Shown here: one piece after another, positions 3,115 through 58,365 of the stretch
How positions within the stretch are numbered: position 1 is the first letter of the stretch
Layout: each line of letters begins with the position of its first letter
IMG/VR virus record: IMGVR_UViG_3300048591_001244
Coordinates: 1 to 64,000 of that record
DNA from: a virus
Reading direction: 5' to 3' (one strand)
Length of the DNA stretch: 64,000 nt
The notes under the pieces: generated by a model
Databases searched by the model: none
What the model was told of the DNA's origin: nothing
The model's input: only the letters and a program-made list of their open reading frames with translations
Program-made: the position numbers and the translations under genes

Positions 3115-3561
3115 ATGAAATTACAAGAAGAAGGATTCCCAGTATTGCCACTATGGCTCAAAGAAGGGCGAATGACTATTGAGGTCATGAAAATTAAAGG
3201 AAAGACAAAATCCGGAATTGATCTTGAAGAAGATCAGACAATCTTTTTAAGAACAGGAAAAATTGTTGCCTTAACTGAAAATCTTGTAAGAGAATACGGG
3301 TTAAAAGTAGGTGATTACGTTCTTTTTAATATGCTTTCCGGTGGAGTTGTTAAAATCGACTTCAATAAAGTTGAGGGAAAACTTCTATCGTTCTTACATG
3401 GAATGGATGTCTTTGGTGTTTGGACAACCGATCCTGTTGCTTATTATCAGGGTGGTGTTGTTCCTGGTAATCTATCTGATACGATCGTTACAGAGAAGCC
3501 TGCAGAGATCCCTGAAGGATTCAGTTCTGATCCTATAGGTATGCAGATAATCAAGGAGTAA
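3115..3561 (+). CDS. GroES/Cpn10-like protein
   Basis: 148 residues. Residues about 20-100 have the beta-rich layout of Cpn10: an opening strand (MTIEVMKIKGKTKSGI) followed by a possible mobile loop, a GKIVAL strand, then GLKVGDYVLFNMLSGGVVKI, close to the 'dvKvGDiVlfn..yG.k' block of GroES. The 45-residue C-terminal extension is not typical. Phage co-chaperonins such as T4 gp31 assist capsid protein folding. No GroEL-like gene is in the window, so it would act with the host chaperonin. Confidence 0.55.
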   Translation: MKLQEEGFPVLPLWLKEGRMTIEVMKIKGKTKSGIDLEEDQTIFLRTGKIVALTENLVREYGLKVGDYVLFNMLSGGVVKIDFNKVEGKLLSFLHGMDVFGVWTTDPVAYYQGGVVPGNLSDTIVTEKPAEIPEGFSSDPIGMQIIKE

Positions 3562-3845
3562 TGCTACAGATGCTCCCGGGATTACGCGGATGGAGAAAGA
3601 GCATTTTAGAAAAGGAAATCGAAATTACTCTTGTAATCATTCGTGAAAAGTATGAATCCAGCTTTGTCTTAAAAGTCAAAGAAGTTCCAGAGGTTGGAAC
3701 TGTGATAACGAAAAAACTGATCGATCCAATGACAGTTGGAAAGGTTGTAAAAGTTGACAATCGTGAAGGGTGGTATTTGGTGTATGAAAAAAAGGTTGAT
3801 ATCCTTTCAAAATTGTGGAAAGTTGAATGGGATGAAAACTTTTAA
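3561..3845 (+). CDS. Small hypothetical protein
   Basis: 94 residues, starting at the TAATG overlap with the GroES-like gene, so very likely coupled to it. Beta-rich and basic at the N-terminus; the middle (LKVKEVPEVGTVITKKLIDP) looks like a small barrel or SH3-like fold. No family recognised. It is the last coding sequence before the structured intergenic region. Confidence 0.65.
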   Translation: MLQMLPGLRGWRKSILEKEIEITLVIIREKYESSFVLKVKEVPEVGTVITKKLIDPMTVGKVVKVDNREGWYLVYEKKVDILSKLWKVEWDENF

Positions 3846-3851
3846 ATTAAA

Positions 3852-3883
3852 TTTGGAACTTTAAAAATTCTGTTTTACATTTG
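3852..3883 (+). promoter_or_regulatory. Bacteroidota-type promoter
   Basis: TTTG at 3852-3855, a 20-bp spacer, then TACATTTG at 3876-3883. This matches the Bacteroidota primary sigma consensus TTTG-N19/20-TAnnTTTG. Transcription should start about 5-8 bp after the -7 box, right at the first base of the inverted-repeat-rich stretch that follows. There is no close downstream gene, which supports a dedicated RNA transcript. Confidence 0.7.
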
Positions 3884-3888
3884 TCCTG

Positions 3889-4226
3889 TTGTAAGGCGTT
3901 GACAGGCGAAACAACAAAAAAATCTTACTATCGGTTCGCCGAGCGAAATTCCCAGAAAGTCCTGTCAACGTTTATTGATGGGATTTCGTGTTTATAGGGT
4001 TTCGCTTCGGATTACAGGCTGAACAACCAGCGCCCAGATTCTAGCTAAAAGAATCAAATAAGCCGATAGTTGTATTTCTTGCACATCGTTCTAGTGGTGG
4101 CTCTGTCTTGCTCCTGACAACATACCGACCTGAAAATAAAAGAAAGCGATGTACCACCTTACAGGGTGTGGATACTTGAGAAAGTAACAGCTTAAAGAAA
4201 ATCAATAGCTGAAAAATGATTTTCTA
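3889..4226 (+). ncRNA. Putative structured non-coding RNA, family unknown
   Basis: No ORF fits this stretch, but perfect complementary segments are dense: CGTTGACAGG 3897-3906 with 3961-3970 (10 bp); a UUCG tetraloop hairpin 3931-3942; GCGAAAC 3906-3912 with 3999-4005; ACTATCGG 3927-3934 with 4063-4070; hairpin 4037-4055; ACATCG 4083-4088 with CGATGT 4147-4152; terminal hairpin 4196-4225 (9 bp). Some pairings exclude each other, implying a switch or pseudoknots. A promoter ends 5 bp upstream. I see no tmRNA, RNase P, 6S or group I intron signature. The 3' end could lie anywhere up to the terminator at 4612. Confidence 0.6.
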
Positions 4227-4332
4227 CTTCTGAAAACCAATTTGTCCTATTTTGATTAAGATAAGGCATAAGGCACATTCAGGGATAAAAAGGAGTGTGT
4301 TTAAATAAAAAAAACTAAAAACAAAATAAATC

Positions 4333-4530
4333 ATGGCACATGCAATAGAGCAACAGCAGTATATAAAAAATGTTGGTCAATATATGGGAATTGAAATAAC
4401 TTGGGGCGGAATTGGATCTAATATATCCGGAACATCTCGATTTTACGCAACTCTTCCAAATGGAACAAAAGTAAGCTCTCCTGTTAAGAGATATTTAAAG
4501 AAACGAATTAAAAAATTCTTTAATACTTGA
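4333..4530 (+). CDS. Small basic protein
   Basis: 65 residues, ending with a strongly basic tail (KRYLKKRIKKFF). The ATG is preceded by an A-rich leader without a clear SD. It sits between the putative structured RNA and a rho-independent terminator, so it may share the RNA's transcript and be controlled by it. Function unknown. Confidence 0.6.
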   Translation: MAHAIEQQQYIKNVGQYMGIEITWGGIGSNISGTSRFYATLPNGTKVSSPVKRYLKKRIKKFFNT

Positions 4531-4580
4531 AAATAACTATCTTTGAATTCGACTTTGACATAGGTTGATTTAGACAGAAG

Positions 4581-4612
4581 AACCCCGACAGAATACCGTT
4601 GGGGTTTTTTTT
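4581..4612 (+). terminator. Rho-independent terminator
   Basis: AACCCCGAC (4581-4589) pairs with GTTGGGGTT (4598-4606), 9 bp with one G-U, loop of 8, followed by a T-run to 4612. It ends rightward transcription where it meets the convergent lysis genes. The T-run abuts the endolysin stop codon on the other strand. Confidence 0.8.
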
Positions 4613-5039
4613 ATGGATTGACGATTAAGATATGATCTAGTCCGGTCCAGCGGATATCTAAATGATTCCAGCCTTTAGTAAAATCTACATTTTCCATTGT
4701 AGTAAGCCCGGCTTTCATAAAAGCTTTCTCATTTGCCAGGATAACATCATAGACCTCTTTGGCTGTCATTCCGGAAGTATTGCTATCGTAAGCCCTGCCA
4801 AACTTATGCTGAGATAAATTACCGCCTGTAGTTGTATTTGGCGGCCTGAAACCTCTCAGACTAAAAGCTCCACCACTATCCCAATTGTTCACATAAACAG
4901 GCAAATCAAAAAAGGTTCTATGGAATTCTGCCAATGCAATTAGCCTGGGATCTAAAAACATGATCGATCTTTTATTCCAACCGGCAAATATTGCTTTTGG
5001 AACAAATTCTTCTATATCAAAATTATCACTGAGTTTCAT
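4611..5039 (-). CDS. M15-type peptidase, probable endolysin
   Basis: 142 residues. It has the zinc site of M15 (D-Ala-D-Ala carboxypeptidase / L-Ala-D-Glu endopeptidase) enzymes: SQHKFGRAYD with H78 and D85, and WNHLDIRW with H126. Such enzymes cut peptidoglycan cross-links and are common Bacteroidota phage endolysins. There is no signal peptide, so it depends on the holin-like protein for export. It starts in an ATGA-type overlap with the spanin-like gene. Last gene of the leftward operon. Confidence 0.8.
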   Translation of the reverse strand: MKLSDNFDIEEFVPKAIFAGWNKRSIMFLDPRLIALAEFHRTFFDLPVYVNNWDSGGAFSLRGFRPPNTTTGGNLSQHKFGRAYDSNTSGMTAKEVYDVILANEKAFMKAGLTTMENVDFTKGWNHLDIRWTGLDHILIVNP

Positions 5040-51170: not shown

Positions 51171-51775
51171 AGTTCTTCTTTTTTACTCTCTTTTTTCTTT
51201 TTTTGTTTCCTTGCTTTAGTCGGAGAGCGGAGATCCTGAATTTCTGCAAGCCTGGTCTTATCAGTTTTGCTTCTTCTCCTGTTGGCCTGCCAGATTTCAA
51301 GAAGACTCATTTTATCCCTTCCTTCAATAGAATTCGTTGCCAGTTCATCGGTGTAAATATCATGCTCAATCTTATCAATCTCCTTTGAAAGCAATTCAAT
51401 GGCCGTTTGAATATTTTTGATCTCCAAAGGAGAATTAGCAGCCATCATGTTGATGTTGAGCAAAGATATTTTTGCTCGGTAGTTCTTTTGTGTTTCCCTG
51501 CGGATATCATACTGCAGGGAATCATAAAGTTCTATCTCTTTTTTCAGTCGCTTCTCATGCTTATCATATTCGTTATTTTTGAAGCATCTGGTAGAAGCTG
51601 TCAATCTTCTTTGTTTATGAGTAAGCTGTCTGTAGGGAGAGTAGTAGTCAGTGATCAGGATGATAAAAAGCAAATCCTCTGCCGGTAATTTTCCCAGCAG
51701 AGGTTCTAAGCTTATCGCATCGGGATGTAAAAACACCCCTTTTTGATCATCGTATAAAAATAGCGTGCTTGCCAT
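51167..51775 (-). CDS. Helical basic protein, possible small terminase
   Basis: 202 residues: a compact N-terminal domain (about 1-60), a long coiled-coil-like middle (EKRLKKEIELYDSLQYDIRRE...) and a very basic tail (KARKQKKKKESKKEEL). A DNA-binding head, helices and location two genes before the large terminase are compatible with a small terminase subunit. No motif proves this. Confidence 0.5.
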   Translation of the reverse strand: MASTLFLYDDQKGVFLHPDAISLEPLLGKLPAEDLLFIILITDYYSPYRQLTHKQRRLTASTRCFKNNEYDKHEKRLKKEIELYDSLQYDIRRETQKNYRAKISLLNINMMAANSPLEIKNIQTAIELLSKEIDKIEHDIYTDELATNSIEGRDKMSLLEIWQANRRRSKTDKTRLAEIQDLRSPTKARKQKKKKESKKEEL

Positions 51776-52554
51776 TATAATGGAAGTTGTCTGCGTTGTG
51801 ATCTTTGCTTTTCAATAGCAGCTTTTCTTTCTTCAGATTTTAATTGAGCAAGTTTGCGAAGGTCATCATTTCCTTCCAGAACAGATTTTATCCTGGAAAG
51901 TTCCATGCCGAGCCACATCTTTGCTTCTATCAAGGCAAGCCATGAAGTCTGTACAAAGATCCCTTCAAAGTTATGGTCCTGATAAGCATCAATGATCGTC
52001 TGAATAACACTACGAATTCTCTTAACTCCCGATGTTTGAGAAAGACCATTTTCATTAAAGATATGTCCATCTACAGCCTCAGCTGTCGGTTCGATCTTTT
52101 TTGATTCCGGGTTCATGCTTTCCGGATATAGATTCTCCTGATCCAGTTCCTTTAGGCGCATGTCAAGGAACATTTTTGCTTTTTCAAGGTTTGTAAGTGC
52201 CAGTGACACTTCTCGGCTGGGATTTAAAACCTTCACTGAGTTCATCAGCGCGTGAATATCCCTTCGTATAATTCGTATTCTTTCTGTTTCTACTACCATA
52301 AGATTTTGATTAGCGTCAAGAATTACTGATTCACTGTTATTCTCCGGATGATCATCATCGTCATCATCATCAAAGTGAGACCCCTCTTGATAATCGTAAT
52401 TTTCATTACTTCCAGAACCATCATTATCTTCAACGACAAGTTCAATGTCACCAAGTTTGAAAGGCTCCTGTGGAACTTCTTCCAAAGGACTGCTTTCAGG
52501 AGATGGTTTAATCAAAGGCTTCTTGCGAAAAACCCCTTTTTCATTTTCACTCAT
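51775..52554 (-). CDS. Tandem Acb2/Tad1-like hairpin protein (candidate anti-CBASS/anti-Thoeris)
   Basis: 259 residues: an acidic disordered start with an Asp run (62-68), then two related helical hairpins. The first (about 89-158) has SREVSLALTNLEKAKMFL followed by NPESKKIEPTAE. The second (about 176-226) has WLALIEAKMWLGMEL. The 'LalT.L.eAKmwLg..L' pattern followed by 'NP.s..IEPTAdt' is what I recall for the Acb2/Tad1 hairpin family, whose members sequester cyclic nucleotides or gcADPR that trigger host immunity. Two copies in one chain is unusual. The tail is basic. Family call from memory of the pattern. Confidence 0.6.
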   Translation of the reverse strand: MSENEKGVFRKKPLIKPSPESSPLEEVPQEPFKLGDIELVVEDNDGSGSNENYDYQEGSHFDDDDDDDHPENNSESVILDANQNLMVVETERIRIIRRDIHALMNSVKVLNPSREVSLALTNLEKAKMFLDMRLKELDQENLYPESMNPESKKIEPTAEAVDGHIFNENGLSQTSGVKRIRSVIQTIIDAYQDHNFEGIFVQTSWLALIEAKMWLGMELSRIKSVLEGNDDLRKLAQLKSEERKAAIEKQRSQRRQLPL

Positions 52555-55947: not shown

Positions 55948-56013
55948 CATTTGTTATTTCTAACAAATAGTACCAACTTTATTTATCAACAATTCATTTG
56001 TTATTCCTAACAA
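55948..56013. repeat. Two copies of a 19-bp palindromic operator-like repeat
   Basis: CATTTGTTATTTCTAACAA (55948-55966) recurs as CATTTGTTATTCCTAACAA (55995-56013) with one mismatch, 47 bp apart. Each is internally palindromic (TTTGTTA...TAACAAA or TTGTTA...TAACAA). The pair lies upstream of the promoter box at 55808-55815, as expected for repressor-binding sites of the leftward genes. Confidence 0.55.
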
Positions 56014-57233: not shown

Positions 57234-57324
57234 AACAAATAGTTTTAGGGCTGGCTTATCACCAGCGTGTTAATACGAACAAAAGAAAAATTGAATCCCC
57301 CTCTTTAGCACAACCACAACGCTA

Positions 57325-57558
57325 CACCACCATCATACGACAGGACAGGTCTAATAGGCTTTACCGACAGATACGACAGGATCTATAGCGAAAGGACAGG
57401 ACTAATACCATGAACGCAAAAATTCCCCGCCGGGTAGTGAAGCCCAACAGGGAATAGCAAGAAAAGAAAACCATTATCAGGTATCGACCACAATGATACA
57501 TAAAAAAAACCATCAGATATACTCCGATGGCTCTTTTGTCCTGTACCCCTACAGGACG
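57325..57558. repeat. Cluster of AGGAC/GTCCT motifs with a perfect hairpin
   Basis: Short motifs related to ACAGGAC recur: acgACAGGACAGGtctaata, acgACAGGAtct, AGGACAGGACtaata, and the pair GTCCTGTA...TACAGGAC (57538-57557), which forms an 8-bp hairpin with a 4-nt loop. They lie in the leader of the SSB-like gene between its promoter and start. They may be iterons of an origin or an RNA control element. Confidence 0.45.
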
Positions 57559-57577
57559 TTCATTTACTTCCGAGCTA

Positions 57578-57609
57578 CAAATATAATAACTTCCAATCAC
57601 CACAACAAA
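57578..57609 (-). promoter_or_regulatory. Bacteroidota-type promoter (leftward)
   Basis: On the minus strand TTTG (57606-57609), a 20-bp spacer and TATATTTG (57578-57585). This is a full match to TTTG-N20-TAnnTTTG. It drives leftward transcription into the SSB-like gene through a leader of about 340 bases that begins with a strong hairpin. Confidence 0.7.
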
Positions 57610-58365
57610 TTTATTTTACTATCTGCCAATTAGGCACACCTCCATAGCCCATCCTAAAGTGATACATGATACTTACATAATTACTTTATCATTTCTCTGT
57701 AACTCCTTGATTATCAGTAGGTCTTATATTTTTTGTCGACATATATTGTGATTATTGTCTGAAAAGGGTGATTATTTGTTGAGTGGGGTATTATTTGTTT
57801 GGGTTATTGATTTGGGGTATTTCTGGGATTGTTTGTGGATATTTTGTGTTATTGTTGGGAGTACTATACATTCTGGAGGAAAGAGGGGAGGGAGAGGAGG
57901 AGCCGAAATGAAGTTTCGGCCCTTGGCCCAGAGGGAGACTTGACATTCTGTCGGAAGTCGGGTAAGGTATGAGTATGGAGTTGATGGGCGACAGAAGTTT
58001 TGAACATATCGCTTGTTACCATCATTACAGCCTATTGGTCAGGTGATGAACGAGATGGGTTTTAGTTGGCTGTTGGATACGGCGGGGCCTGCTGGTGGGT
58101 CAGGTTTGTAGGAGGGATCTGGTGTCCGCTACTCAGGTGTGGAGGTAATTAACGGGAGTCCGGTTGGGCTTGGAACAAAGGCAGTAATGAACTGTACCGG
58201 GCCGAATAAAGAGTATATCCTTCACACGAGTTAAACAAATAGGTTCACTATCCTATTTCAGGGAACAAAGTAATGGTGTTGTGGTGAGAAAGTCAAGAGT
58301 TTGGGGGAAATAATTTTTCTTTCTTTCGTAATCTAATAAGTATTAACCAGATAAAATAAAAAACT
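57610..58365. other. Divergent intergenic region, origin/control candidate
   Basis: No convincing gene. The first 130 bases are AT-rich (an easily opened stretch with TTATATTTTTTG). From about 57750 the + strand becomes strikingly G-rich, mirroring the C-rich + strand left of 57.2 kb, and the flanking genes diverge. A perfect hairpin GCCGAAA-TGAAG-TTTCGGC lies near 57901-57919. Such a skew switch plus divergence is typical of replication origins. Confidence 0.45.

Follow-up and report, generated by a model that had tools for sequence, protein, structure and literature searches.

The locus and its carrier phage

The stretch of DNA analysed here (the window, 64,000 nucleotides) covers positions 1 to 64,000 of the IMG/VR virus record IMGVR_UViG_3300048591_001244, which has a length of 79,204 bases. 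Near its beginning, a gap of 487 nt (3846-4332) separates a 94-aa gene (3561-3845) from a 65-aa gene and contains no + strand ORF of at least 40 aa; a gap of this length is long for such a gene-dense genome. The following elements, all on the + strand, are found or predicted in this order in the gap and behind it:

3852-3883, +, predicted Bacteroidota-type promoter TTTG-N20-TACATTTG, an exact match to TTTG-N20-TAnnTTTG
3887-3916, +, 5' hairpin TGTTGT/ACAACA with CGTTGACAGG displayed in its loop, present in the MFE fold (p 0.96 in transcripts ending at 3930)
3897-3970, +, predicted transient helix B, a perfect 10-bp complement of CGTTGACAGG (3897-3906) and CCTGTCAACG (3961-3970)
3927-4070, +, predicted core, a four-helix junction
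3927-3936/4061-4070, +, P1, which closes the junction (p 0.98 at transcript end 4075)
3939-3954 with 3989-4010, +, P2, a long helix with a 12-bp hairpin cap (3957-3968/3975-3986)
4018-4021/4028-4031, +, P3
4037-4042/4050-4055, +, P4
4083-4157, +, candidate pseudoknot 1, ACATCG (4083-4088)/CGATGT (4147-4152) crossing GTGGT (4094-4098)/ACCAC (4153-4157), read directly from the letters
4188-4225, +, candidate compact H-type pseudoknot 2, CAGCT/AGCTG (5 bp) and AGAAAATCA/TGATTTTCT (9 bp)
4333-4530, +, 65-aa gene downstream of the RNA, its product with a basic C-terminal helix
4583-4612, +, probable transcript end, read from the sequence as a stem AACCCCGAC/GTTGGGGTT with a T run behind it

The final 22 bases of the record are identical to positions 1-22 of the window. 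This end overlap points to a circular molecule, so that the record most likely represents a complete genome of ~79,182 bp. The terminase, portal and major head protein all match PHROGs and are related to those of Crassvirales; the terminase shares 21-26% identity with Crassvirales (tblastn) and 37% with its top metagenomic relative. As classified from these comparisons, the carrier is a distant, uncultured crAss-like phage of Bacteroidota bacteria. The crAss-like phages are among the most abundant gut viruses and are present in other habitats too. The + strand block that has NinB-, RusA-, UDG- and GroES-like genes extends to 3845; facing the RNA region, a long - strand block to which the structural and lysis genes belong comes to its end at 4611. 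The GroES-like co-chaperonin (3115-3561, 148 aa) matches PF00166 above the cut-off. Elsewhere in the window, a 259-aa protein encoded on the - strand (51775-52554) has a weak match to the Acb2/Tad1 hairpin domain (PF24729, E 2e-4, 21.7 bits vs a cut-off of 27) and is possibly an anti-defence protein.

TTTG-N20-TAnnTTTG is the consensus promoter known in Bacteroidota. Its two boxes lie at 3852-3855 (TTTG) and 3876-3883 (TACATTTG), and the perfect host-type promoter that a preliminary description of this DNA had placed before a non-coding stretch is thus present. A match of this kind arises by chance in the gap with a frequency of ~1% (19 of 2000 shuffles of the 487 nt), and the 79-kb genome carries three sites with the N20 spacing vs 0.78 expected from shuffles. 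If spacings of 18-22 are admitted, the whole genome holds six matches (four of them intergenic) vs 3.7 expected, so the promoter motif per se is not rare.

Stability of the predicted fold

To assess stability against chance, we compared predicted folds with those of shuffled sequences. The whole 446 nt has z = -3.1, with none of 100 shuffles equally stable, and nearly all of this stability is contributed by 3922-4075, the stretch that holds the core [MFE -52.0 kcal/mol, z = -5.0, none of 200 shuffles equally stable]. When both strands of the 79-kb genome were scanned on a grid of 1028 windows (154 nt each), the top-ranking window was about as extreme as the core; this rank is somewhat flattering because the borders of the core were chosen and those of the grid were not. 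The + strand of 3926-4075 folds better than the - strand (z -5.1 vs -3.3), which fits a + strand RNA and agrees with the direction of the promoter.

The 3' part (4076-4332) is no more stable than its shuffles (z = -1.1). The structured RNA behind a host-type promoter that was described earlier is supported for the 5' half, by the folding statistics and the promoter. Every helix then listed is present; most of them, taken singly, are at chance level, since 450 nt can be expected to contain single perfect complements of this size, 6-10 bp (we estimate ~0.14 perfect 10-bp pairs), and their count alone is no evidence. With all RNA readings considered jointly, we regard it as probable that a structured RNA is real here. 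The fold of the core is a good prediction; its role is left to the readings below.

Both pseudoknots in the 3' part are candidates, neither of them established. The crossing pairs ACATCG/CGATGT and GTGG/CCAC of the preliminary description do occur, as candidate pseudoknot 1 only, and a scan of this stretch favoured a different crossing pair with a score matched by 3 of 200 shuffles. Candidate pseudoknot 2 has Watson-Crick stems of 5 and 9 pairs with loops of 3, 2 and 5 (AAAAA), and none of 200 local shuffles equals it; yet ~27 candidates on both strands of the genome score higher, and a compact pseudoknot with a similar score turns up about every 5-6 kb of strand.

Predicted refolding during synthesis

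The order of folding was derived from the equilibrium folding of transcript prefixes, as distinct from a kinetic simulation. In this prediction the 5' hairpin forms first (transcripts ending at 3930) and is followed by helix B (3972), P2 then displaces B, and P1 is formed by 4075. The segment 3961-3970, the exact complement of the loop of the 5' hairpin, sits inside P2. Helix B has p 1.00 in transcripts ending at 3972 and 0.00 from 4015 on, and is thus predicted to be dominant during synthesis and then fully replaced by the core. Among the controls, 4 of 160 shuffles and 2 of 160 random windows of the genome showed a transient helix of at least 10 bp; the one here reaches 13 bp.

A UUCG tetraloop had also been pointed out, and it does lie at 3931-3942 (UCGG-UUCG-CCGA), although its closing pair is G-C and not C-G, so that it is not the extra-stable cUUCGg, and it is predicted in short transcripts only (p 0.88 at transcript end 3945, ~0 after core formation). 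This hairpin and the helix 3927-3934/4063-4070 are both present and exclude each other. The exchange of helix B supports, as a prediction, the mutually exclusive helices of the preliminary description.

The 65-residue gene and the extent of the transcript

The 65-aa protein has no match in Pfam or PHROG. Its structure model has a pLDDT of 75.5, and we tried it as an RNA-binding fold: Foldseek gave no significant fold match (top E 0.63), and VIA-align scored at most Z 5.7, over a mixture of unrelated chains that included KH and RimP folds; nothing was concluded from this.

Between the core and this gene, a consensus scanner found no convincing terminator, and the sole + strand terminator site listed before the gene is the P2 cap, with few T behind. 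The probable transcript end at 4583-4612 is absent from the scanner's list; the stretch around it (4526-4675) has z -4.0 on the + strand. Since no convincing terminator precedes the gene and a probable one lies behind it, the simplest transcript would be ~725 nt long and carry both the RNA and the gene. The bases 5' of the start codon are A-rich, resemble the leaders of other genes in the phage, and are 97% unpaired in the predicted fold, which therefore does not block translation. A switch in front of the 65-residue gene, as was suggested earlier, is possible, but no expression platform is seen in the predicted secondary structure (no convincing terminator, start region open).

Searches for relatives and known RNA classes

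Rfam 15 gave no match at gathering score in the window. At E <=5 all matches are sub-threshold, and two of them touch the region: rli38 with 20 bits vs a cut-off of 49, and PreQ1 (4289-4324) with 16 bits vs a cut-off of 39. ARAGORN found no tRNA or tmRNA gene in the window. The group I intron core has no Rfam match at E <=5, and the ORFs on either side (3561-3845 and 4333-4530) are separate and complete rather than parts of one interrupted gene. We obtained no positive evidence for a ligand switch or for the suggested catalytic RNA; no ribozyme or intron family appeared in the Rfam check even at E <=5. The repeats in the region are short and in two copies only, without the tandem pseudoknot units of type III toxin-antitoxin RNAs.

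By blastn, no homologue of the gap was found in phages or plasmids, and 46 crAss-like records gave only short matches (E >0.001), many of which fall in the A-rich leader. A search of viral contigs through the neighbouring proteins reached no homologue of the RNA. A covariance model of the core matched only itself in 632 kb of sequence from this phage and related ones, and nothing in 198 Bacteroidota genomes or the 46 crAss-like records. Built on one sequence, such a model reaches fairly close relatives only, and the collections searched may lack very near records, so the absence of relatives is weak evidence. The claim for the core stays a prediction.

Several sequence patterns were followed as well. 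GACAGGCGAAACAAC seemed to be a conserved 21-mer in more than 20 viral contigs; the flanks belong to one near-identical phage family with an unrelated context, and we take the match as coincidence. The pattern GTTGACAGG-N-CCTGTCAAC led to many intergenic hairpins of GTTGACAGGTTAAC-like units in Chitinophagaceae that are unrelated to the RNA; these hairpins are a repeat family of their own in Chitinophagaceae, with at least seven in one Pseudobacter genome. CGATGTACCACCTTACAGG had no match, and GATTACAGGCTGAACAAC had two chance matches in unrelated sequence.

Comparison with known systems

With its own promoter, non-coding sequence, stable multi-helix fold and a small gene behind, the region resembles in general kind the orphan structured RNAs and long folded 5' leaders known from bacteria and phages; it differs from them in having no relative in sequence or structure and no known expression platform. 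GOLLD and ROOL are large structured non-coding RNAs in phage genomes, which the present RNA resembles in general terms, but it is shorter and lacks a match to Rfam, in which they are represented. A candidate compact pseudoknot 5' of a small gene recalls the type III toxin-antitoxin RNAs (ToxI and kin), whereas the tandem repeat units and a recognisable endoribonuclease toxin gene behind are missing here. Group I introns, which are frequent in crAss-like phages (PMC10136315), are similar in length range and in having crossing helices; the present RNA, in contrast, is intergenic and has no Rfam match. In a 2023 review of crAss-like phages (PMC10136315) the words non-coding, ncRNA and promoter are absent, and non-coding RNAs of these phages have seemingly been hardly studied. 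If made and folded as predicted, this one would be a defined and testable case, in a crAss-like phage, of an RNA made by the host polymerase; it is an orphan prediction pending a relative or a transcript.

Interpretation

Our preferred reading, to which we give a probability of roughly 40%, is that the region is the structured 5' part of a host-transcribed RNA of ~725 nt that includes the 65-residue gene, and that the core works in cis, in the manner of a long leader. Host RNA polymerase would start the transcript near 3888, and ~440 structured nt would precede the gene, with the end at the terminator 4583-4612. During synthesis the 5' segment would pair first with 3961-3970; once 3975-4010 emerge, helix B would yield to the long hairpin P2, and P1 would then lock the four-helix junction. 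The folded core may govern the small-protein message in its stability, timing or translation, and is perhaps bound by the basic 65-residue protein. The promoter consensus, the exceptional stability of the core fold, the absence of coding sequence and the order of the elements are observed here; that the RNA is transcribed, how it folds in the cell and whether it influences the gene are inferred. In favour of this reading, a perfect promoter adjoins a gene-free gap; the core is exceptionally stable and ranks with the top of the genome scan; folding is better on the + strand; the predicted helix exchange is uncommon in controls; no convincing terminator separates the core from the gene and one lies directly behind it; and the start region is open, with an A-rich leader like those of the phage's other genes. 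Counted against this are the lack of a homologue and of covariation, the lack of an expression platform, and a 3' part that does not exceed its shuffles.

A close rival, which we hold to be possible if somewhat doubtful, is an independent RNA with a regulatory or scaffolding role in trans, on the host or the phage; the 65-residue gene would then just lie downstream or encode its protein partner. The perfect promoter and the exceptional fold would serve such an RNA equally, no expression platform is seen before the gene, and other predicted RNA units in the genome (68731-69000, and 57609 on the - strand) suggest that this phage may tend to make separate RNAs; the missing terminator between core and gene argues against it, as does the failure to identify a target or a relative. 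It is rather unlikely that the region is an ordinary spacer, in which the sequence of P2 is real but unselected as RNA and the remaining helices are due to chance. The low z of the 3' part, the frequency of compact pseudoknots, promoter matches not clearly beyond shuffles genome-wide (six vs 3.7) and the absence of demonstrable conservation are all consistent with a spacer, but the core ranks with the top of 1028 genome windows, a promoter lies directly 5' of it, and the gap is long in a gene-dense genome.

A long shot in our estimation is that the core represents a class of phage RNA that is new, transcribed by the host polymerase and refolding during synthesis, with an RNA function of its own and a small basic protein as partner, and with at least one further orphan RNA behind a like promoter. 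A riboswitch or a self-cleaving or self-splicing RNA is very improbable: the junction core, the helix exchange during synthesis and the group I introns common in crAss-like phages (PMC10136315) would suit it, but there is no worthwhile Rfam match (E <=5), no expression platform and no split gene around it. That the region is a DNA-level element (replication origin or packaging site) merely resembling RNA is scarcely credible, for although the + strand block here meets the end of the convergent late block near a sign change in G-C skew, the skew merely tracks gene direction, tandem repeats and iterons are absent, and the strand asymmetry of the fold and the promoter favour RNA.

Other promoter-linked units in the phage

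Outside the window, at 68731-69000 of the record, a second structured non-coding RNA is predicted behind a promoter TTTG-N18-TATCTTTG and has its own strong terminator. The 301 nt at 68700-69000 have z -4.35, and show no match in Rfam or, by blastn, in phages. The gene that follows has similarity to PRTRC system protein E (PF19556, E 6e-14).

At 57609, a perfect promoter on the - strand (TTTG-N20-TATATTTG) heads a long - strand gene block. The unit of ~75 nt behind it (57578-57503, -) consists of an 8-bp hairpin GTCCTGTA-GGGG-TACAGGAC and a terminator GCCATCGG...CTGATGG-T8; the unit 57503-57609 may represent either a small RNA or an attenuator acting on the - strand block. The promoter at 78656 precedes a gene with an ordinary short leader, and not every such promoter therefore drives an RNA.

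A palindrome ATTTGTTA-N4-TAACAAAT occurs at 55951 and 55998 and at 72869 and 78653 of the record, with a variant at 68701. It partly overlaps promoters and is probably the operator of a phage regulator. Between divergent gene blocks, 57234-58365 forms 1.1 kb without convincing genes, with a C-rich - strand at 57.8-58.2 kb, and is a candidate control region or origin.
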